The notes under the pieces are model-generated. The model saw nothing but the letters and a program-made list of their open reading frames with translations, was not told the origin of the DNA and searched no databases. Made by a program: the position numbers and the translations under genes. DNA of 46,684 nucleotides from Candidatus Cloacimonadota bacterium (GTDB taxonomy: Bacteria; Cloacimonadota; Cloacimonadia; Cloacimonadales; Cloacimonadaceae): the NCBI GenBank assembly GCA_017994635.1, contig JAGOKK010000007.1, positions 1-46,684 of the forward strand, written 5' to 3'. Below are positions 5,670 through 16,087 of this stretch, in pieces (within the stretch, counting starts at the first letter, position 1; each line of letters begins with the position of its first letter).

Positions 5670-6773
5670 CTAAAAGAAGTCGTTGAATTCTGTATCCAGC
5701 AGTTGCCTCATCCGATGCTCATCTTCGCTTTTTATGTAGGCAATGGCAAAAACCGGATTGGTGCGGTGATCAAGCTTCACATAAGCCATCAATACAGCTT
5801 TGGTCGAAAGATGATCCCTGAAAGCATCATGATCCGGGCTTCTGTGCATCACATCCACGTCTTTGCCATTGTATGCCAGGATGAAGGCATAGTTTTCCTG
5901 CGCTCTTTGCCCCCACACATTCTCCCAGGTGGGAGCCAGTCCTTCAAAATAGGCGGTAATGGGGTTAAACCCGTAGCTGTGCCAGGTGAGATCGGCTAAA
6001 CCGAATCCCCCGTAGCGCATGGGATTGAACTCGATGGGGATAAAGCCCCTGTCTGTGAGTTTGAACTCTGCATGGATGGGGAAGTTTGTGAGGGACAGAG
6101 CATTACCGAAGCTCTCGAAAAAATCGGTGACAGCCTGAAGATGGCTCTCAAACACTCCGGCGTTGGTGTAATACATCAGATGAGCATATGCGGCGATTCG
6201 TGCTTCCGGATGCCGGTAGATGTTCATGATTCGCGGTATTCCCACATGATCATAATACATATCGACGGCATACTCATCGCCACCAATGTACTCTTCCACG
6301 ATGAACTCAGAGGAGGTAAGCACAGAACTGGGGAAGAATCGTGAATATGCTTTCATTTCCCGGCTTACATCGCTTTGAAGAGCGTGTAAGTCTGTATCAG
6401 GGCCGGCAAAACGCACACCGGTGCCAAAGAACCCTTTTAGCGGCTTGATCACTACCTGTTTACCTTTCACGTCTAGCGTCGGGATGCTTTCCAGGCTACA
6501 TTTGGCAAAGTAGAAATTCGGATAAAGGCTGCTCATTGCCTTTCGGCAGAGATATTTGTCTTTCAGCTGATTGATCCCAGAAGCACAGGCCTGGTCGTCC
6601 ATTCTATTCAAAACCGTGCCCAGAGAGGTCTCAGATGGTACATACACTTTATCATCTGAGCAGAAGCGGATATCGCTGGCGAGCAATTCATCTTTGCTCA
6701 ATGCACGAATACCCTTGGGAGGATTATCCGCAATAATGCTGTTATAGGTAGTTCCGGTGATTATGTAATTCAC
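5670..6773 (-). CDS. ATP-grasp domain protein
   Basis: Predicted ATP-grasp ligase of 367 residues. Visible are the ATP-binding strand and loop (QVVIKPLKGFFGTGVRF), a second nucleotide-contacting strand (EFIVEEYIGGDEYAVDM), and the acidic metal-binding pair in FIPIEFNPMRYGG. These enzymes join a carboxylate to an amine or thiol through an acyl phosphate; the substrates here are unknown. The open frame extends upstream to 6890, but that part is the tRNA-Gly read as protein (VAGSNPVARS), so I place the start at GTG 6773 (VNYIITGTT), with AAAGGA upstream. It lies 56 bases after the tRNA and may share its transcript. Confidence 0.8.
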   Translation of the reverse strand: MNYIITGTTYNSIIADNPPKGIRALSKDELLASDIRFCSDDKVYVPSETSLGTVLNRMDDQACASGINQLKDKYLCRKAMSSLYPNFYFAKCSLESIPTLDVKGKQVVIKPLKGFFGTGVRFAGPDTDLHALQSDVSREMKAYSRFFPSSVLTSSEFIVEEYIGGDEYAVDMYYDHVGIPRIMNIYRHPEARIAAYAHLMYYTNAGVFESHLQAVTDFFESFGNALSLTNFPIHAEFKLTDRGFIPIEFNPMRYGGFGLADLTWHSYGFNPITAYFEGLAPTWENVWGQRAQENYAFILAYNGKDVDVMHRSPDHDAFRDHLSTKAVLMAYVKLDHRTNPVFAIAYIKSEDEHRMRQLLDTEFNDFF

Positions 6774-6829
6774 AAAAAAGTCCTTTTTTATCGGCAAAGA
6801 TGCTTTATACAAATGCCGCGAGTAATATT

Positions 6830-6905
6830 TGGAGCGGGCAACGGGGTTCGAACCCGCGACCCCCAGCTTGGGAAGCTGGTGCTCTACCAACTGAGCTATG
6901 CCCGC
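6830..6905 (-). tRNA. tRNA-Gly (anticodon CCC)
   Basis: 76-nt cloverleaf with acceptor stem GCGGGCA/TGCCCGC, D-arm TAGCTCAGTTGGTAGAGC, anticodon stem CCAGC/GCTGG with loop TTCCCAA (anticodon CCC, reads GGG), T-arm GCGGG-TTCGAAC-CCCGT, discriminator T and an encoded CCA. Confidence 0.95.
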
Positions 6906-6961: not shown

Positions 6962-8308
6962 CTACTTCAAAATGGGTAGCCATACCCCCACTACTGCTGC
7001 TATCAATAACAATGCTGATGGACTGAGATATGTCCACAATGGAAGCATCCGGGGTTCCTTAGTTTCTCCACCGCACATTGTCAGGCCGATGCGGACCATG
7101 GACCAGGCTATTGCTGCCAGCATCAGGATCAGCGCAATGACCATGGCGATGTGCCCCCTGGCAATCAGGCCACTGATGATGAAAAACTTGCTCACAAACA
7201 GCGGAGAGGGCGGAAACCCCAGGATCATAACCAGGGCGATCATCCACAGCCATGCCGTGCTTTTATTCAAGCTCCAAAGCCCAGAGATGTTGGCATGCTG
7301 TTTGTCGTGATACAGGCTTAGGATATTGCCAGCAGTGAGAAAGAGGGCCGCTTTGATCAACGAATGCCCCAGGATATGTAAAAACCCGGCGTAAGTGGCT
7401 ACTCCGCCTGCTCCAAAAGCAATCATGATCAGTCCCATGTTCTCAATCGATGAATAAGCCAGGAGCCGCTTGTAATTCCTCGTTTTGAGGATGAATACAG
7501 TGGCGATGAATACCGAGATGACTCCCATCAACAGATACAAATCCTGCGCTAAATCGCCCATACCAGCAGCCCGCATGATCTTATCCACTCTGAGCACGGG
7601 TAGCAGGGCAGTATTTAGCAAAGCTCCTGAGAGCAGTGCCGAGATCGGTGCCGGAGCTTCTGAATGCGCATCAGGCAGCCAGAAATGCAGAGGGGCCAGA
7701 CCAATCTTGGTACCAAAACCCACGAGTATAAAGATGAATGACAGCTTTAGCCAAAAGGGAGACAAGGTGGCAGCATTTATCTTCGCAAGGCTTAGGACGG
7801 CGTTCTCCGGTTGAGCAAGCACCAGAAGCAGGATGCCCACAAAGGCGAGCGCGATGCCTACGCTACAGATAAAGAGGTACTTCCAGGCCGCCTCCAGGGA
7901 ACTCTTGGTATTTTCAGAACTGATCAGCATGGCAGAGCTGATAGTGGTAGCTTCCACGAAAATCCAGATCCATCCCAGATCCCTTGCCATGCAGGCCGCA
8001 TCCATTGCTGCAATGAAGAGCATCAGAAAGATGCTTTGCACCCGGTATGCCTTGTAGCTATAATCTTTACCGCTGCCTATGCGATAGAAGGCGACAGCCA
8101 TAAATAGCAGCGAGGTGATCAGGAATATAAACAGTCCCATATCATCCATCATCCCCAGACTACCACGATAGATGAATCCTTGCAGACCCAGACACAGGTG
8201 TAGCAGGGCATGCAGCAGGACCAGTATATCCAGTTTGCGCTTGTCCTTTACGATCAGTGCCAGCAGAGACGCCAGGAGGGGGAAAGCGAAGAGCAGTGCT
8301 GCAAACAT
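6962..8308 (-). CDS. Proton-translocating subunit, HyfF/NuoN/MrpD-like
   Basis: Polytopic membrane protein of 448 residues, the last gene of the complex operon. It belongs to the antiporter-like family (Proton_antipo_M: NuoL/M/N, MrpD, HyfF). Conserved pieces include GFGTKIGLAPLHFWLPDAHSEAPAPISALLSG, with a Lys in a discontinuous helix, and the following LLAYSSIENMGLI and HILGHSLIKAALFLTAG (His/Lys pair). These residues form the proton path in relatives. It matches EhrD/HyfF in position and size. The ATG overlaps the stop of the HyfE-like gene by one base (TGATG), indicating translational coupling. It should couple electron transfer in the peripheral subunits to ion pumping. Confidence 0.9.
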   Translation of the reverse strand: MFAALLFAFPLLASLLALIVKDKRKLDILVLLHALLHLCLGLQGFIYRGSLGMMDDMGLFIFLITSLLFMAVAFYRIGSGKDYSYKAYRVQSIFLMLFIAAMDAACMARDLGWIWIFVEATTISSAMLISSENTKSSLEAAWKYLFICSVGIALAFVGILLLVLAQPENAVLSLAKINAATLSPFWLKLSFIFILVGFGTKIGLAPLHFWLPDAHSEAPAPISALLSGALLNTALLPVLRVDKIMRAAGMGDLAQDLYLLMGVISVFIATVFILKTRNYKRLLAYSSIENMGLIMIAFGAGGVATYAGFLHILGHSLIKAALFLTAGNILSLYHDKQHANISGLWSLNKSTAWLWMIALVMILGFPPSPLFVSKFFIISGLIARGHIAMVIALILMLAAIAWSMVRIGLTMCGGETKEPRMLPLWTYLSPSALLLIAAVVGVWLPILK

Positions 8309-8940
8309 CAGTCCTCCCTCAATTGGCGCGGGCTTTCGGCATCGTCAAAAGTCGATTTGATGCGCTTGATAAACAGCACCCCGATCAAGACCGAAAGCAT
8401 GATGTCCAACGATATACCCAGCGAAATGATATGGGGGAGATCGCCACCCACGGCCAGAGAAAGGAGGAAAATTCCATTTTCCATGATCAGGTAGCCCATC
8501 AGATGAGTGATCAGTTTCTTATTTGCGATGATGATGAAAAGCCCCTTGATAATGGTGGCAAATGCTATGCCAAACTCCAGCGGGAAAAGCTTTCCAGAAT
8601 GCTGTCCCGAAAACCCTGCAAGAGCAAAGCTGCCCAGAAAGATCAAGCTCATCAGCGCCAGAGAAAAGAAATTGGACACGTAGGCTTCCACCTCGCGGTG
8701 AATCTGATTGTGCTTAATGGTATCGTCGATAAACCAGGGAATAACAATAGCTTTAAAGATCAGCGTTTCGAGCGCGATGAAGGCGAACCCCACCCAGTTT
8801 AGATGGGTGCTCTTGAGCAAGGTGATGCCAAAGAGGATCAACCCTTGCACCACGAGAATCTTGATGATGGAGCTAAGCATATTGGTCACCGAGGCAAATA
8901 GCAAGGTAATTCCAAAGGCCAATACTAATATCTCTTGCAT
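8308..8940 (-). CDS. HyfE-like membrane subunit
   Basis: Integral membrane protein of 210 residues with about six hydrophobic helices. Size and operon position match hydrogenase-4 component E (HyfE, or EhrC in Ehr complexes), whose C-terminal part is related to NuoK/MrpC. The NuoK-like part here is YLIMENGIFLLSLAVGGDLPHI, with a buried Glu in a helix that matches the conserved Glu of NuoK. It starts 3 bases after the HyfC-like gene and its stop overlaps the next start. No sign of truncation. Confidence 0.88.
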   Translation of the reverse strand: MQEILVLAFGITLLFASVTNMLSSIIKILVVQGLILFGITLLKSTHLNWVGFAFIALETLIFKAIVIPWFIDDTIKHNQIHREVEAYVSNFFSLALMSLIFLGSFALAGFSGQHSGKLFPLEFGIAFATIIKGLFIIIANKKLITHLMGYLIMENGIFLLSLAVGGDLPHIISLGISLDIMLSVLIGVLFIKRIKSTFDDAESPRQLRED

Positions 8941-8943
8941 CTG

Positions 8944-9849
8944 TCACACTCCAATACTTTTTGCGATGAGAGCTGCTATGGCCAAAACGGCAACCGACAC
9001 GGGAACCAGTACCAGTTCCAGATTGCGGTTCATCCGGAAGCGTGCCATCAGGCTTTCCAGGACTCCAGTTACGATTCCAGTACTGATAATGCCACCAAGG
9101 AACCAAAGCATAGGTAATGAAGTGGTCTGGGGAATGATAATCTGGACTATCAATGAAGAATAGATCAGCATTTTAAGCGCTGCTGTATAGTGAATCAGGC
9201 CAAGAGAGAATCCGCTATAGTCCAGGATCATCACTTCGTGGATCATGGTGAGTTCCAGATGTGTATTGGGATCATCAAAGGGCACTCTGGCAGATTCTAC
9301 AAGGAGCATCAGATACAACGCGAAGACAGTGAATGCTCCCACCACAATATTCCAAACTCCCTGACCGCCAATACTATAAGAATGCAGCAAACCATTTAGC
9401 GAGTTGAAGCCGGCGCTGAAGATCAATGAGGCCATTATGAGGATGAAAGCCGGTTCCAGGAAGGCCGTAAAGCTAATCTCTCTGCTGGCACCCATGCCTT
9501 CGAAACTGCTGCCGCTATCCAATGCGGCAAACACCATGATACCTTTGGCCAAAGCCAGCAAATACAATACCAGCACTACGTCGCCTCTGAAGCTGAAGAT
9601 GGACTCTGATAGCCCTATGGGGACGAACAACGCGGCACAAAGCGTAGCGGATAGAGCAAGAGAGGGAGCCAGACGGGTGATGAAGGAAGCGCTGCTGCTG
9701 ATCACTTCATCTTTGCGCAGCAGTTTTAGAAAGTGATAATATGGCTGCAGCAGGCTCTGCCCCTTTCTCCCAACCATGATGGCCTTTACTCTGGAAATGA
9801 GCCCCGGGACAAACAAGGGCAAGAGCAGGATGATCAGTATATTTATCAT
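8944..9849 (-). CDS. HyfC/NuoH-like membrane subunit
   Basis: Membrane protein of 301 residues, homologous to HycD/HyfC and NuoH, which link the peripheral electron-transfer module to the membrane arm. The signature GRKGQSLLQPYYHFLKLLRKDEV (positive loop after helix 1) and ESARVPFDDPNTHLELTMIHEVM (acidic loop corresponding to the quinone/E-channel region) are present. I choose the ATG at 9849, which overlaps the upstream stop as ATGA, rather than the longer frame to 9897. It corresponds to EhrB. Confidence 0.9.
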   Translation of the reverse strand: MINILIILLLPLFVPGLISRVKAIMVGRKGQSLLQPYYHFLKLLRKDEVISSSASFITRLAPSLALSATLCAALFVPIGLSESIFSFRGDVVLVLYLLALAKGIMVFAALDSGSSFEGMGASREISFTAFLEPAFILIMASLIFSAGFNSLNGLLHSYSIGGQGVWNIVVGAFTVFALYLMLLVESARVPFDDPNTHLELTMIHEVMILDYSGFSLGLIHYTAALKMLIYSSLIVQIIIPQTTSLPMLWFLGGIISTGIVTGVLESLMARFRMNRNLELVLVPVSVAVLAIAALIAKSIGV

Positions 9850-11756
9850 TTGAACCCCAAAACCCAGACTAATACGACGATCAAAAAGCCTACGCACCAG
9901 GCGATATAAGCATCGGTGCGGCCATTATGCATGCCTGAGAAGAGACCGAAAAACCAATTCAGAGCTTTGCTTACTGGCTCCACAATGCACTTCCAGAATG
10001 GATCCTCACTATGCTCGGCATATTCCACTTCCCGGGCAAAGAGTCCCTCAGCTTTTATCCGCTCTTTTTTGATCAGGATAAAGGGCTTCAGGAAATAGGA
10101 CAGGGGATGCACGAACGCCAGAGATGTGTATTGCATTCTGGGGCTGGGCTTATGGTATCCGCATCCCCAGGTGGGAGATACGATATCCTTCACGCAGAGC
10201 TTTCTGATCAGATACAGGAGCCCAAAGACCAACAGCACGATCCCCAGCACGATGCTAATCTGACTAAACGTATTCCTCAGCCCGATATACCCGCTCATAT
10301 CCAGTTGCATCCAGCGCAGGAGAGGCTTTACAAAGCGCAAACCTACATTGCCAAAGATGCCGGTGAGTAGGATTCCTGCCACCAGTACTACTTGCGGCAA
10401 ACACATCCCACGAGGGCATTCCCTGGCTTTTGTGGCTTGTTCACTGCGCGGCTCACCCAGGAAGATGATGCCAAACAGCTTTGCAAATGCGATCAGGGCC
10501 AGGGCTCCGATGAATGCCATAGCTGCCAGCAGAACCACACTGATCACAATCGCAGGTAAGTCATGAGCTGCCATCGCGCTTAGCAGTCCAGTGTATATAC
10601 TGAATTCACTGATGAAGGCATTACCGATGGGCAATGCTGAAATGGCAAAAGTTCCGATGAGGAAGCAAGCTGCGCTACGTGGCATTGCTTTGGCCAAACC
10701 GCCCAATTGATCAGCTTCCAGAGTATGGGAGGCACAAAGTATGTTTCCGGAAAGATAAAAGAGCAGAGCTTTAAAGAGCGAATGAAAGAAGGTATGCAGC
10801 AGCGCTCCGGCAAAGCCCAGAGTAGCCATCATCGGTATCCCGGCATCCAGTCCCAAGAGACCCACGCTCAGCCCGATGCCGATGATGCCCATATTTTCGA
10901 TGGAAGAAAAGGCGAGGGCTTTTTTTACATTGCTGCTGATCATGGCATGGATCACACCCCAGAAGGCGGTCACCACAGAGATCAGACAGAATATCGCTAT
11001 CTCCCTGAGATTGAAGCTATTTATGCTGATGATCACGAGGATGCCATATAGTCCGGCTTTGATCATCATGGCACTCATAATGCCAGATACATGAGCCGGA
11101 GCTACTGGATGTGCCTGAGGCAGCCACGATGAGAAAGGAACGAAACCCGCTTTGAAGGCGAAGCCTATCATCAAGAGATACATTGGTAGGCGGGGCATGG
11201 CGGCCAGAGTTGAGAGATCAAAGCTGCCCGTCTGCAGGTAGAGTAGTCCAAATCCCGCTATCAGGAATCCCGCGCCTATCTGCATGGTGATGATGTAGTT
11301 CAGCGCGGCTTTCAGAGATGCAGAGCGATCCTGGATCACACATAAGAACGAGGAGATGCTCATCACTTCCCACAGCATCAGGAATAAGAGGCTGTGGCGC
11401 ATCCACAGCAGACCGTGCATACTGAGTCCCAAAAGTCCCAGCCAGAATAGATGTGAGCGCAAGCCCGGTCCGGGGTGTTCTTTCAGGTAAAAATGCCCAT
11501 ATAACATCCCTAGAGGTAAGCCAATGGAAAAGATTACACCAAAGAAGGCGGAAAGTTTGTTCAGGCCGATATTGGCAGTCCCAATGGGATCAGGAAACAA
11601 CAAAAGGTAATCCTGTACATTCCGTGAGTAAAGGACTTCCAGGTATTCAAACGCAATGAAGCCTGAGCCCATGAGCCAGACTATGCTAAAAAGCCCAGAG
11701 CGTTTCCACAGAGCAGGGATCAGACCAAGAAAGAGGATGATAAAGCCGATACTCAT
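9846..11756 (-). CDS. Large antiporter-like subunit, HyfB/NuoL-like
   Basis: Membrane protein of 636 residues with about 14-16 helices, the largest pump subunit (HyfB-like; EhrA in Ehr nomenclature). Motifs: FKAGFVPFSSWLPQAHPVAPAHVSGIMSA, then VKKALAFSSIENMGIIG and HTFFHSLFKALLFYLSGN, the Lys/His/Lys set of the antiporter family. The C-terminal part carries the cytoplasmic segment WGCGYHKPSPRMQYTSLAF typical of HyfB. The open frame can be read 56 residues further upstream, but ATG 11756 gives MSIGFIILFLGL, the normal hydrophobic start, and overlaps the previous stop as ATGA. So 11756 is preferred. Confidence 0.9.
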   Translation of the reverse strand: MSIGFIILFLGLIPALWKRSGLFSIVWLMGSGFIAFEYLEVLYSRNVQDYLLLFPDPIGTANIGLNKLSAFFGVIFSIGLPLGMLYGHFYLKEHPGPGLRSHLFWLGLLGLSMHGLLWMRHSLLFLMLWEVMSISSFLCVIQDRSASLKAALNYIITMQIGAGFLIAGFGLLYLQTGSFDLSTLAAMPRLPMYLLMIGFAFKAGFVPFSSWLPQAHPVAPAHVSGIMSAMMIKAGLYGILVIISINSFNLREIAIFCLISVVTAFWGVIHAMISSNVKKALAFSSIENMGIIGIGLSVGLLGLDAGIPMMATLGFAGALLHTFFHSLFKALLFYLSGNILCASHTLEADQLGGLAKAMPRSAACFLIGTFAISALPIGNAFISEFSIYTGLLSAMAAHDLPAIVISVVLLAAMAFIGALALIAFAKLFGIIFLGEPRSEQATKARECPRGMCLPQVVLVAGILLTGIFGNVGLRFVKPLLRWMQLDMSGYIGLRNTFSQISIVLGIVLLVFGLLYLIRKLCVKDIVSPTWGCGYHKPSPRMQYTSLAFVHPLSYFLKPFILIKKERIKAEGLFAREVEYAEHSEDPFWKCIVEPVSKALNWFFGLFSGMHNGRTDAYIAWCVGFLIVVLVWVLGFK

Positions 11757-12478
11757 TTGGCCCCCATAAAGCTGTGTATCGCATGCACGATGGATAGAGG
11801 ATGCGTAGGACAGCCTGGGATATAGATGCTGGCCGGCCAATGCGCTAGGAAGGAGCGGTCTAGCTGGACTGAAGGCGCGAAGACTCCGCCGGATATGGCG
11901 CAGCATCCGCATAAGATGAGACACTTGGGCGCGGGTATCGCCTTCCAGGTCTCAGCAAGAGCCTCCGCCATACTTCGGCTGATCGGACCTGTCAGAATCA
12001 AGGCATCAGCATGCCTGGGGGAAGCTACGATCTCGATTCCATAACGTCCCATATCAAAGTTTACGTTTGTACTGGCCCCGAGTTCCAGTTCGCAGGCATT
12101 GCAGCCCCCGGCGCTCACATTGCGCAGGGCAAAGGATCTCTGAAAGAGCTTGGTATTGGGAGAGGCAAACCTGGCCTGATACTGGGTCCCGGGAGCTATG
12201 TATAGGGCTTCCCTGCTATCGGAAGCCAAACGAAAATCTGGCTTGAAGTCTATCATCTCCGGATATTTCCGTTGACAGGCTCCGCAAAAAGTGCATTTAC
12301 CCAAGTCAAGGCCTTTCTCAGAGAAAGCTCCGGTGGGACACAGCGCGGCTAAAGCTGGCAGATCTGCATCGGCTGCCAGAAAGGGGCATCCGGGAAAAGC
12401 TGGATTGATCTGTGCCTGAAGCGGATTGGGTATCGCCTGATATCCGTGCCGGAGGCGTGCTTTTATTAGTTCAAACAT
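11753..12478 (-). CDS. ehrS: Ferredoxin-NuoB-like fusion, small subunit of Ehr-type complex
   Basis: Protein of 241 residues. The N-terminal domain (about 1-90) has one ferredoxin-type cluster site: CPTG at 47 and CTFCGAC at 62-68. The C-terminal domain is HycG/HyfI/NuoB-like and keeps the N2/proximal [4Fe-4S] ligands: CNAC (126-129), a Cys in CGCC (190-193) and CP at 223. The family stretch SPRHADALILTGPIS is clear. In relatives the ferredoxin is usually a separate subunit (HyfH/HycF); here the two are one chain. ATG 12478 lies one base after the large-subunit stop, with GGAG upstream. It passes electrons between an unknown donor or acceptor and the large subunit. Confidence 0.85.
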   Translation of the reverse strand: MFELIKARLRHGYQAIPNPLQAQINPAFPGCPFLAADADLPALAALCPTGAFSEKGLDLGKCTFCGACQRKYPEMIDFKPDFRLASDSREALYIAPGTQYQARFASPNTKLFQRSFALRNVSAGGCNACELELGASTNVNFDMGRYGIEIVASPRHADALILTGPISRSMAEALAETWKAIPAPKCLILCGCCAISGGVFAPSVQLDRSFLAHWPASIYIPGCPTHPLSIVHAIHSFMGAK

Positions 12479-12479
12479 A

Positions 12480-13913
12480 TTAGAGGTCACTCCCGCTGTA
12501 AGATAGATCAAAGCTTTTGTTGCAGATCGGGAAATCTGATATCTGCCCGTTTCGCATCACCAAAGCCAGTGCTTGCCAATTCGTAAATGATGGATCGAGT
12601 ATCTTATACCACAATGGCTTACCTGCGGGATCTGTCTTGCATAAATGCACTATACGTCCCCGATATCCTTCCACAATGCCACACGCGATGCTATCGGGAG
12701 CAAAATCCTCCAGTGCAACGCAGAGCTGAGCGGAGGGATCAAGGCGCTCAAGGTTTCGGGATACCAGATCCAGAGATTGGATGATCTCCCGGTAACGCAG
12801 GTGAGCCCTGGCCCACACATCTCCGGAGTTCTCGCAAAGCGCAGTAAACGAGATCTCATCGGATAGAGGATAATCCATTCTTGCGTCTGTAAAGATACCG
12901 CTGGACTTTGCAGTGATCCCGGTGAGTCCTAATGCCAGCGCGTCCTGAATCTTCAGTATGCCAGTGTCATCAAAACGGGATAACACGCTGCTGCTATTGA
13001 ACAAAGCTTCACAGCAATCTGTCACTTGGATGCGAACTTCCTCCATTGTCTTACTCAGAGTGTCCGCCTGAGCTTTGGAGATGCTGTAATTCACCCCTCC
13101 GGGAGTGAGCCAGCGTTTGCCAAATCTACTGCCACAGATGGCCAGTGAGGAGTTTATCACCGTCGTTCTCAGAGCGGCGAACATATTTTGCCCCATAATG
13201 TAAGCTACGTCGGCGGACAGGGCTGATAGAACTGACAGATGCATGGCGATTCGTTCCAGTTCGAGGGCGATCATACGGGTATGAAATCCCGCTGCCTTCG
13301 TTCCGGCCAGACCTTCCAATACCAGGCACCAGGCCAGCGCGTGACCGATGCTGGTGTCTCCCGCTATGCTCTCTGCCAGACAGTTCTTAGTGCGAATGTC
13401 GCCTTTTAGCATCAAGCGCTCCACGCCGCGATGCTGATAACCAAGCTTGATCTCAAGGTGTTCAACGATCTCGCCACGGCATATGAAGCGAAAATGTCCC
13501 GGTTCGATCACTCCGGCATGCACCGGCCCGACCCCTACTTCGTGCAAAGCGGGGGATTCTGAGGCTAAAAAAGTATAGTCATTATGATCAGCATGATCAT
13601 CTGTAAAAGCTTTCAAAACCTTGAGTTGGGGATGCCCCCAGGCTCGGATGCCATAATCCTCGTACAGCGATCGTTCATACATGCTGAAGGCGGGAAAATC
13701 CACTGTCAGTGCGGAGTATTCTTTACCCGGTGGAAAGGTGGAGCATAATAGCTGCACATCGCCAGATTTACCCAGCAAAGCATACATTAGTCCTTCATCG
13801 CTGCCAAAACAGTGCAATAGTGTGTAACCCGATTGCATCAGCTCCCGGAGCTTCTGTGTAAACGTCGTAAACTCAAGCTGATCCGGACTTTGGATCAATA
13901 TCGGATTCGCCAT
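12480..13913 (-). CDS. ehrL: NuoCD/HycE-like large subunit without Ni-Fe cysteines (Ehr-type)
   Basis: Protein of 477 residues: an N-terminal NuoC-like domain (about 1-115; SMYERSLYEDYGI) fused to a NuoD/hydrogenase large-subunit domain. In NiFe hydrogenases two CxxC motifs bind the metal. The first should align with ESIAGDTSIGHA (181-192), where both Cys are replaced by Ala and Thr. The second (DPCxxC) aligns with SFDLSYSG (467-474), where they are Ser and Gly. Hence no Ni-Fe site is possible and the protein fits EhrL of energy-converting hydrogenase-related complexes. First gene of the six-gene operon, so it sets the start of the transcript. The true redox substrate is unknown. Confidence 0.88.
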   Translation of the reverse strand: MANPILIQSPDQLEFTTFTQKLRELMQSGYTLLHCFGSDEGLMYALLGKSGDVQLLCSTFPPGKEYSALTVDFPAFSMYERSLYEDYGIRAWGHPQLKVLKAFTDDHADHNDYTFLASESPALHEVGVGPVHAGVIEPGHFRFICRGEIVEHLEIKLGYQHRGVERLMLKGDIRTKNCLAESIAGDTSIGHALAWCLVLEGLAGTKAAGFHTRMIALELERIAMHLSVLSALSADVAYIMGQNMFAALRTTVINSSLAICGSRFGKRWLTPGGVNYSISKAQADTLSKTMEEVRIQVTDCCEALFNSSSVLSRFDDTGILKIQDALALGLTGITAKSSGIFTDARMDYPLSDEISFTALCENSGDVWARAHLRYREIIQSLDLVSRNLERLDPSAQLCVALEDFAPDSIACGIVEGYRGRIVHLCKTDPAGKPLWYKILDPSFTNWQALALVMRNGQISDFPICNKSFDLSYSGSDL

Positions 13914-14467
13914 CTTCCTCTTCTTTCGGAGATTATTGTCGCGCGTAATACCTTCGCAACTCTACGCAGCAACTAGCTTCATTACAAATAAACCGCGTGA
14001 TTTTGTAAAGGAAAATCTTACCTGACCCCAGAAATCCAGATTCTGTAGGGATCTCTGGATCGGATTCCGGGGATGTCTCGTTGGGAGTAATTGTCCAGAT
14101 CTGTCCCCCTTATGACCTGAACTCCAGACGAAGGCCTCCTGAACGCCACTTGAACCGGATTCAGGAGGGGTTCAAGTGGAGCTTGAGATGTGTTCGGGCA
14201 GCTAGGGGGCATGGGGTGACAAATGTGTTCTGAAACTACTTTAGCCTCAGAGGGGGGATGATCTTGACAGGAAATGGCGCATATTAAATGATGCGCGCAT
14301 CACCGAGTGGACATTTCTAAACCTCAGGCATGAGTGTTCACCGATAGGGTGCATCCGGAAACAGATGTGCCTTCCAGTGTGAAAAGGTGATCGAAGCTTC
14401 AGGTGTTTTCCTTCTGAAGATACTTCTCCCTCCTTTCACAAGAACATACAAGAAAAGGAGTTACCCC
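13914..14467. other. Structured divergent intergenic region and P5CDH leader
   Basis: About 550 bases between the Ehr operon (minus) and P5C dehydrogenase (plus). It contains interleaved inverted repeats at 14135-14179. At 14181-14200 a segment resembles half of the dispersed palindrome. TTGACA at 14264-14269 could start a leader of about 180 bases. Within that leader an RNA hairpin (GGTGCATC at 14348-14355 with GATGTGCC at 14364-14371, using two G-U pairs) and CTTCAG/CTGAAG at 14397-14402/14414-14419 can form. No known riboswitch class could be fitted. Confidence 0.5.
14135..14179. repeat. Two interleaved perfect inverted repeats
   Basis: A 9-bp pair (CCTCCTGAA 14135-14143 with TTCAGGAGG 14160-14168) and an 11-bp pair (14146-14156 with 14169-14179, CCACTTGAACC/GGTTCAAGTGG) are interleaved in the order a-b-a'-b'. 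As RNA the two stems are mutually exclusive or, less likely, pseudoknotted. As DNA it could be a protein-binding site. Confidence 0.7.
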
Positions 14468-16087
14468 ATGTTTTTCGAAGTCCCCGTACCCAAGAATGAG
14501 CCTATTCAATCTTATGAACGAGGTTCTAAACAGCGTGAAAGTCTACAAAAGAAGCTTGCCGAAATGCACGACACATGCTTTGAGATTCCTGCCATTATCG
14601 GTGGTAAAGAAATCTTCAGCGGCAAGACCAGTAACTGCATTGAACCTCATAACCACAAACACATATTGGCGCATTATCACAAAGTAGGCAATCCGGAAAT
14701 TGAGCTGGCCATCCAGTCCGCGGTGAATGCTCAGCACGATTGGGAGAATATGCCGGTGTATCATCGCTCCGCCATCTTTTTGAAGGCAGCCGAACTACTC
14801 TCCACAAAGTATCGTGACATCTTAAATGCCTCAACCATGCTGGGGCAAAGCAAGAATGCTTATCAATCAGAGATAGATGCCGCTTGCGAACTGGTTGATT
14901 TCTGGCGCTTCAATGCGTACTTCGCCCAAAAAATCTATGAACAGCAGCCCCTGGTATCACCCAAAGGAGAGTGGAACTTTACCGAATACCGACCTCTGGA
15001 AGGATTTGTATTTGCCATCACGCCTTTCAATTTCACGTCGATCGCTGGGAATCTGCCCACTTCACCTGCTCTGATGGGTAATACCGTGATCTGGAAACCC
15101 GCTGGAACAGCCGTGTTTAGTGGCTACTACATCATGCAAATCTTGAGTGAAGCCGGGTTACCTGATGGTGTAATCAACTTTATCCCCGGTTCTGGAGCAC
15201 AGATCGGGAATTCCGTGACCGATTCCGAACATCTGGCTGGTATTCATTTCACCGGAAGCACGCAAGTCTTCAATTCCATTTGGCAAAGAACGGCGAATAA
15301 CATCCACCGTTACAAATCATACCCTCGTCTGGTAGGTGAAACGGGTGGAAAGGACTTCATCTTTGCCCATGCCTCTGCAGATGCACGCGCGCTTGCTGTG
15401 GCATCATTGCGCGGAGCATTCGAATATCAGGGACAGAAGTGTAGTGCCGCTTCCAGAATGTACATCCCGGATTCCTTGTATCCTGCATGGCTCAAGGAAA
15501 TGCAGGAGATGATGCCAACCATTAAGATTGGTGATCCAAAGAACTTCGGCAACTTCATGAATGCGGTGATCGATCAAGCAAGCTTTGACAACATCAAAGG
15601 GTACATCGATTATGCCAGGAATGCTTCGGATGCAGAAATTCTCTTTGGTGGAACTTGTGACGATAGCGTAGGATACTACGTGGAACCCACCGTGATCAAA
15701 ACCACCAATCCTCGCTTCAAATCGATGGGCGAAGAGATCTTTGGCCCTGTCCTGACCATCTATGTTTATCCCGAGAAAGAATATGAAAGCACTTTGCATC
15801 TTTGTGATACCACTTCCCCCTATGGTCTTACAGGATCCATCTTTGCCCAGGATCGCCAGGCAATCTGCTTTGCCTACGAGACACTGAGGCATAGCGCTGG
15901 AAATTTCTACATCAATGACAAACCGACTGGAGCGGTGGTGGGTCAGCAACCCTTTGGCGGAGGCAGATCCTCTGGGACAAACGATAAAGCTGGCTCGGCA
16001 TTAAACCTGCAACGCTGGATCTCGGCCAGATCAATCAAGGAAAACTTTGTCCCTGCAACCGACTATACCTATCCCTTCATGACCTGA
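14468..16087 (+). CDS. pruA: 1-pyrroline-5-carboxylate dehydrogenase (L-glutamate gamma-semialdehyde dehydrogenase)
   Basis: Aldehyde dehydrogenase of 539 residues that oxidises glutamate-gamma-semialdehyde to glutamate with NAD+, the second step of proline and arginine/ornithine breakdown. The catalytic Cys is in GQKCSAAS (residue 325) and the general base Glu in GETGGKD (residue 291). FAITPFNFTSIAGN and KPTGAVVGQQPFGGGRSSGTND are diagnostic of the P5CDH branch (ALDH4A1-like), whose usual length of about 540-560 fits. I start at ATG 14468, with AAGGAG 8 bases upstream, not at the longer frame from 14387. No proline dehydrogenase lies beside it, so it may serve ornithine/arginine fermentation or pair with a distant gene. 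Confidence 0.93.
   Translation: MFFEVPVPKNEPIQSYERGSKQRESLQKKLAEMHDTCFEIPAIIGGKEIFSGKTSNCIEPHNHKHILAHYHKVGNPEIELAIQSAVNAQHDWENMPVYHRSAIFLKAAELLSTKYRDILNASTMLGQSKNAYQSEIDAACELVDFWRFNAYFAQKIYEQQPLVSPKGEWNFTEYRPLEGFVFAITPFNFTSIAGNLPTSPALMGNTVIWKPAGTAVFSGYYIMQILSEAGLPDGVINFIPGSGAQIGNSVTDSEHLAGIHFTGSTQVFNSIWQRTANNIHRYKSYPRLVGETGGKDFIFAHASADARALAVASLRGAFEYQGQKCSAASRMYIPDSLYPAWLKEMQEMMPTIKIGDPKNFGNFMNAVIDQASFDNIKGYIDYARNASDAEILFGGTCDDSVGYYVEPTVIKTTNPRFKSMGEEIFGPVLTIYVYPEKEYESTLHLCDTTSPYGLTGSIFAQDRQAICFAYETLRHSAGNFYINDKPTGAVVGQQPFGGGRSSGTNDKAGSALNLQRWISARSIKENFVPATDYTYPFMT

Follow-up and report, generated by a model that had tools for sequence, protein, structure and literature searches.

An ordinary Ehr complex without a Ni-Fe site in a Cloacimonadota host clade, and a sister clade without the proximal iron-sulfur cluster

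Introduction

Energy-converting hydrogenase-related (Ehr) complexes have been published from Geobacter (PMC7894505), from Margulisbacteria (PMC6349859), and from candidate phyla radiation bacteria, Nitrospira and ammonia-oxidising archaea (PMC7304191, PMC10284858, PMC10432482). In the published complexes the CxxC ligands are missing and no function has been assigned (PMC6349859, PMC10284858, PMC10432482, PMC7304191). Here we describe a six-gene complex of this kind from an uncultured, anaerobic Candidatus Cloacimonadota bacterium, encoded on a contig (C47, 46,684 bases; the window, which is the whole contig) of a 2.12 Mb draft genome that is estimated to be 92% complete. With the Ehr complexes of Geobacter sulfurreducens (GSU0739-0745) and of the other lineages named above it has in common a large and a small subunit, a NuoL-like and a HyfE-like subunit, further membrane subunits, and the lack of Ni-Fe ligands. 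It departs from other Ehr complexes in its gene order, L-S-B-C-E-F rather than B-C-E-F-L-S, in a host that has neither UbiA nor HypD, and in position 473 of the large subunit, EhrL, where a Ser takes the place of the usual Cys.

The complex shares with the group 4 [NiFe] hydrogenases Hyf and Hyc of Escherichia coli the HyfB, C, E, F, G and I types of subunit, the pump residues and a hydrogenase-type proximal cluster, but it cannot be placed among them, as EhrL is without the two CxxC pairs and the genome is without HypD; it also has no HyfA-, HyfD- or separate HyfH-type subunit, and carries instead a one-cluster ferredoxin domain fused into the small subunit, EhrS. The MBS (Mbx) polysulfide reductase of Pyrococcus furiosus (PDB 6u8y) is likewise derived from group 4 and has no working Ni-Fe site. 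MBS keeps two of the four cysteines, however, has a shortened small-subunit CxxC motif that exposes the proximal cluster, and has no equivalent of glutamate E21 of the MBH large subunit MbhL, whereas the window complex retains none of the four cysteines, has a motif of hydrogenase length and keeps the E21 equivalent. Complex I (Nuo) shares the NuoC-NuoD fusion, NuoB, NuoH and NuoL/M/N-type subunits and the loss of all four Ni-Fe cysteines, but the window complex lacks an NADH module, tandem cysteines at the NuoB position and, in EhrL, equivalents of the quinone residues H38 and Y87 of the complex I subunit Nqo4.

The complex is a member of the Ehr family

Judged by its sequence, the window complex is an Ehr complex and an ordinary member of the known family. 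All six open reading frames are present, with matches to Complex1_49kDa/30kDa, Oxidored_q6, Proton_antipo_M (two), NADHdh and a HyfE-type family, and the Ni-Fe-less large subunit stands in one operon with the small subunit and the Hyf/Mrp-like subunits. In a 92-row EhrL tree, made by a quick method with limited references (E. coli and Cloacimonadota proteins for CxxC-bearing group 4), Ehr forms a clade with SH-aLRT support of 100 that lies outside both CxxC-bearing group 4 and the NuoD-like proteins. Window EhrL groups there with the Ehr relatives found, including a Desulfuromonadaceae protein (L088) that stands for the Geobacter-type Ehr in place of G. sulfurreducens EhrL itself. Together with the genome-wide absence of HypD, which answers the earlier call for a check of the hyp maturation genes, these results bear out the sequence-only reading, made from the letters of the window, that the operon encodes an Ehr-type complex and not a hydrogenase; a position of EhrL inside active group 4, which that reading had named as contrary evidence, is not seen.

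The same reading held that Ehr is known in a few groups, a view that cannot be maintained, and took its presence in what looks like an amino-acid fermenter to suggest a ferredoxin-linked pump. We confirmed at least 559 Ehr relatives from at least a dozen phyla, in addition to the lineages in the literature, and because Ehr is so widespread its presence in a fermenter is not special. The 80 relatives kept represent Melainabacteria, Lentisphaerota, Spirochaetota, Bacteroidota, Ignavibacteriota, Acidobacteriota, Pseudomonadota, Myxococcota, Desulfobacterales, Desulfuromonadaceae, Planctomycetota, Chloroflexota, Verrucomicrobiota, Elusimicrobiota and Riflebacteria.

Other Cloacimonadota contain a second, different class of non-Ni-Fe NuoD-like protein (L137, L138, L141, L144, L145, L147, L148 and L150), characterised by VCRICVPEPDTNEY together with SLHT(Y/C)PPEIER and by the retention of one first-pair cysteine.

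EhrL has lost the Ni-Fe site and keeps an invariant pocket

We aligned EhrL with HycE (E. coli), MbhL (Pyrococcus) and Nqo4 (Thermus). The positions of the four Ni-Fe cysteines are occupied by Ala184 and Thr187 (first CxxC) and by Ser471 and Gly474 (second CxxC), exactly as had been proposed, and no displaced CxxC pair, the other contrary observation named beforehand, was found elsewhere in the protein in these alignments. EhrL ends three residues past the last motif position and therefore has no C-terminal tail of the kind cleaved in hydrogenase maturation. All of 18 other Cloacimonadota orthologues (39-64% identity) carry AGD[T/S] and LSYCG, so the replacement of the ligands is more than chance.

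Residues D186, E137 and R142 are invariant in 100/100 Ehr rows, and S471, Y472, G474 and R418 in all 99 rows with sequence at those positions, although one of the two patterns used in the contig scan contained S471, which is thus an unbiased test only in the Cloacimonadota rows and partly selected elsewhere. These pocket residues rank among the most invariant in the whole complex, and EhrL is under purifying selection, with the pocket invariant at 50-64% identity to 17 same-clade orthologues. Position 473 is more variable, with Cys in 80/99 Ehr rows and Ser or Ala in the other 19, also in other phyla; the window has Ser (AGC, 12495-12497), unlike the other Cloacimonadota sequences, in which the residue is Cys. 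In view of these substitutions we rejected a role for Cys473 of the LSYCG motif as a catalytic thiol.

E137, kept in all Ehr rows, is the equivalent of MbhL E21, a glutamate important for proton reduction in MBH (PMC7684303). H38 and Y87 of Nqo4, the quinone-binding residues of complex I (PMC7684303), correspond to I136 and G185. A structural model of EhrL (pLDDT 89.8, pTM 0.91) fits best to HycE of formate hydrogenlyase (7z0s_E) and next best to complex I NuoCD, and is least certain at the chamber loop 130-138 and the C-terminus.

EhrS clusters and the membrane arm

The N-terminal ferredoxin-like domain of EhrS has a single [4Fe-4S] ligand set, C47, C62, C65 and C68, which is present in 100% of 79 rows and aligns with the fourth to seventh cysteines of HycF, HyfH and NuoI. 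One of two clusters is therefore kept, that next to the proximal cluster, and the outer one is gone; we take the retained cluster to be of the N6b type and the missing one of the N6a type. Window EhrS also retains the proximal [4Fe-4S] ligands C126, C129, C193 and C223. The proximal CxxC is of hydrogenase length, aligning without gaps to the motif of HycG and MbhJ, and the proximal cluster should therefore be fully Cys-ligated. In MBS the motif is shortened (MbsJ) and one Fe of the proximal cluster has no Cys ligand (PMC7684303).

A residue-conservation comparison shows that the pump residues are retained in all four membrane subunits (Table 1), from which we infer that the complex may couple redox chemistry to ion translocation. 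K374 of the HyfF-like subunit is Glu in most Ehr. The earlier statement that the iron-sulfur and pump subunits keep their key residues thus holds for the pump, but has to be amended for the ferredoxin domain with its one cluster. We make no claim that H197 and H204 in the loop of the HyfC-like subunit are Ehr-specific, as they were compared only with E. coli HyfC, HycD and NuoH; other group 4 relatives, CooK and EchB, may also have loop histidines.

A host clade without HypD and mostly without UbiA

This version of Ehr occurs in 18 genomes of a single Cloacimonadota family, that of the window and 17 others at 50-64% EhrL identity. The order is L-S-B-C-E-F wherever the operon is whole, and mostly B-C-E-F-L-S in other phyla; one further genome of the family (G047) has the B-C-E-F-L-S order, and the tree shows it to be a separate acquisition. 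Contamination or a pseudogene was rejected on the presence of Ehr, as one clade, in 9/12 genomes of the genus.

Gene absences in genomes rest on family searches, in which the window genome (~92% complete) has no PF00374 hydrogenase, no HypD and no UbiA. HypD is found in 0/18 genomes of the clade and UbiA in three (G005, G008 and G015), leaving 15/18 without it, the window's included. The UbiA search was positive in 14/14 control genomes and in 67/75 Cloacimonadota outside the family, and a UbiA homologue occurs in 38/41 Ehr-bearing genomes of other phyla. Most members of the family that have no Ehr are also without UbiA, so low quinone capacity is a family trait rather than an Ehr trait. With HypD missing from the clade and UbiA from most of it, H2 and quinone are both unlikely as partners of the complex.

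RnfC is present in 115/125 genomes of the phylum, and the window genome has an Rnf operon as well as several genes for multimeric FeFe hydrogenases. On another contig (G000:C134, L159, 228-5277) a NuoF-type protein adjoins a 1100-aa Fer2 / pyridine nucleotide oxidoreductase protein. We considered this NuoEF-associated pair as a formate dehydrogenase and rejected it; the large protein has Pyr_redox and a short Molybdop_Fe4S4 match and no molybdopterin catalytic domain.

Loss of the proximal cluster in a sister clade

The sister of Cloacimonadota Ehr in the EhrL tree is a Bacteroidota-centred clade of 11 rows (SH-aLRT 100; 91 for the sister relation). In place of the four proximal ligands its EhrS has D, C/T/A (and others), D and N; the cysteines of the ferredoxin domain and every pump residue are retained. 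A separate sample of 345 genomes around one member contained 13 with Ehr, 12 of them of the D/D/N type (including the centre genome). When the ligand sites were masked, the EhrS tree showed a single loss, dividing 22 rows from 52 (SH-aLRT 98); all proximal ligands are kept in the latter 52 of the 74 scored rows, the window's among them. The replaced site is itself highly conserved, EhrS of the sister clade is still predicted to have the NuoB/HycG fold, and the first 11 sister-clade rows all have Cys at position 422 of EhrL. There is no published account of this loss in the literature searched, which did not cover older subscription papers on Ehr. The earlier suggestion that the complex moves electrons is likely to apply to the window copy with its two clusters, but it cannot be extended to the family as a whole.

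Operon structure and neighbouring genes

The operon runs from 13913 to 6962 on the reverse strand (Table 1). The starts of EhrS and of the HyfB-like and HyfC-like subunits were corrected from junction sequence and homology. The junctions are, in order, TAATATG, ATGA, ATGA, TGACAGATG (a 3-base gap) and TGATG, and since all genes overlap or lie 1-3 bases apart, the six form one translationally coupled operon. Scans for promoter and terminator consensus sequences gave no more matches than in shuffles.

Directly downstream is a tRNA-Gly (ccc) at 6830-6905. An ATP-grasp reading frame at 5670-6890 overruns this tRNA, and its true start must therefore be further in. A divergent P5C dehydrogenase gene (14387-16087) lies upstream; we rejected it as a partner of Ehr, as among Cloacimonadota it neighbours the operon only in the window genome and in G043. 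At 16 ehr loci the operon is adjoined by a gene whose product begins with an excisionase-type DNA-binding region and also contains a PTS EIIA-like part (domains named by eye), for example L062:4302-4985, L088:1118-1792 and L052:2940-3593. It stands directly before a B-first operon in 15 of the 16, and none is found at the L-first Cloacimonadota operons.

Table 1. Features of the ehr operon in the window, and EhrS rows without the proximal cluster.
Feature	Coordinates	Strand	Remarks
ehrL, NuoC-NuoD / HycE-like large subunit	12480..13913	-	477 aa
EhrL A184-G185-D186-T187 codons (former first CxxC)	13353..13364	-	From alignment
EhrL S471-Y472-S473-G474 codons (former second CxxC)	12492..12503	-	From alignment
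ehrS, small subunit	11753..12478	-	Fused N-terminal ferredoxin-like domain
hyfB-like antiporter subunit (NuoL/HyfB type)	9846..11756	-	E130, K202, K278, K329, E384 kept
hyfC-like subunit (NuoH type)	8944..9849	-	Acidic charge axis; E132, E185, D192, E199, E205 kept
hyfE-like membrane subunit	8308..8940	-	K63, E154, D179 kept
hyfF-like antiporter subunit	6962..8308	-	E119, K143, K201, K280 kept
EhrS without proximal cluster			L078, L079, L103, L104, L113, L115, L117, L119, L123, L124, L125, L162-L173

What the complex may do

We favour, at about even chances, a role for Ehr as a ferredoxin-fed, redox-driven ion pump with a small acceptor other than H+, quinone or polysulfide. Reduced ferredoxin, or another low-potential protein from amino-acid or propionate oxidation, would dock on the N-terminal domain of EhrS, and electrons would cross the two clusters to the EhrL chamber. 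A small acceptor would be reduced there with protons relayed via E137, and the chamber loops would drive export of Na+ or H+ through the HyfC/HyfB/HyfF arm. The ferredoxin donor, the ion export and the acceptor are what we propose; the parts, losses, conservation and missing families to which they are fitted are those described above. As far as its sequence tells, the acceptor of the window complex is not H+, because there is no Ni-Fe site and there are no maturation genes. It is probably not quinone, given the replacement of H38 and Y87 by I136 and G185 and a genome with no UbiA, and probably not polysulfide in the manner of MBS, since EhrS has the hydrogenase-length CxxC and an expected fully Cys-ligated proximal cluster.

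Several points weigh against such a pump. The outer ferredoxin cluster, the expected place for ferredoxin to dock, is missing from EhrS, and a comparison of neighbours across loci found no consistent partner gene adjoining the operon. Rnf and the multimeric FeFe hydrogenases of this genome can already oxidise ferredoxin, so that a third outlet is not required. A scavenged quinone is compatible with the absence of UbiA, in a genome that is itself ~92% complete. The sister clade keeps the pump without the proximal cluster, which weakens any mechanism that needs electrons at EhrL.

The strongest rival, which we consider possible albeit not probable, is a redox-gated ion translocator, in which the cluster of the ferredoxin domain acts as a sensor of reduced ferredoxin, or takes its charge from it, and so switches or biases an Mrp/Hyf-type antiporter, with EhrL a structural remnant without turnover. 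No other redox centre is shared by every Ehr in the sample, and no partner oxidoreductase is found in the operons; it is mainly the 22-row clade, with its proximal ligands replaced and its pump intact, that gives gating this much weight. The 52 rows that keep all proximal ligands, however, include the window's, and a mere remnant would not need so invariant a pocket. A related and somewhat less likely view treats the Ehr lineage as a complex I / hydrogenase-4 pump progressively disconnected from terminal redox chemistry, ferredoxin-gated or otherwise driven, with no electrons passing to a substrate of the large subunit. First to go would have been the Ni-Fe site and the outer cluster of the ferredoxin domain, and then, in the Bacteroidota clade, the proximal N2-type cluster, giving way to conserved Asp/Asp/Asn with the pump intact.

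We think it improbable that quinone or polysulfide is the acceptor, in an enzyme resembling complex I or MBS. The EhrL fold is as much that of complex I as of group 4, and UbiA is common among Ehr hosts of other phyla, but the missing quinone His and Tyr, the many clade genomes without UbiA and the unshortened EhrS motif (PMC7684303) all argue the other way. Slightly more doubtful again is that Ehr serves a cytoplasmic formate dehydrogenase as its membrane partner, as proposed for Margulisbacteria (PMC6349859) and in keeping with the increased abundance of all Ehr subunits on formate in G. sulfurreducens (PMC7894505). No conserved neighbour resembling a formate dehydrogenase was seen in Cloacimonadota or at other loci, albeit with no genome-wide search for FdhA, and the one NuoEF-associated large protein examined has no such catalytic domain. 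That the operon is a decayed or misassembled hydrogenase without function, as the loss of all four catalytic ligands might suggest, is refuted by conservation, seen in the intact frames, the coupled junctions, the 18 conserved orthologues and the same substitutions across a wide family, and we give it almost no credence.

Implications

The window complex itself is ordinary, and the interest lies in its host and in the sister clade. New here are the Cloacimonadota gene order, the HypD- and UbiA-poor host clade, the single ferredoxin-domain cluster and the proximal-cluster loss in the sister clade. Ehr is widespread, conserved and, in Geobacter, expressed, which makes its function a matter of interest to bioenergetics. 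Two candidate acceptors drop out together in a host clade that has no [NiFe] maturation and, for the most part, no quinone synthesis. The clade without the proximal cluster is a natural experiment that bears on the possible workings of a complex I-type pump and on whether coupling depends on the N2-type cluster at all.

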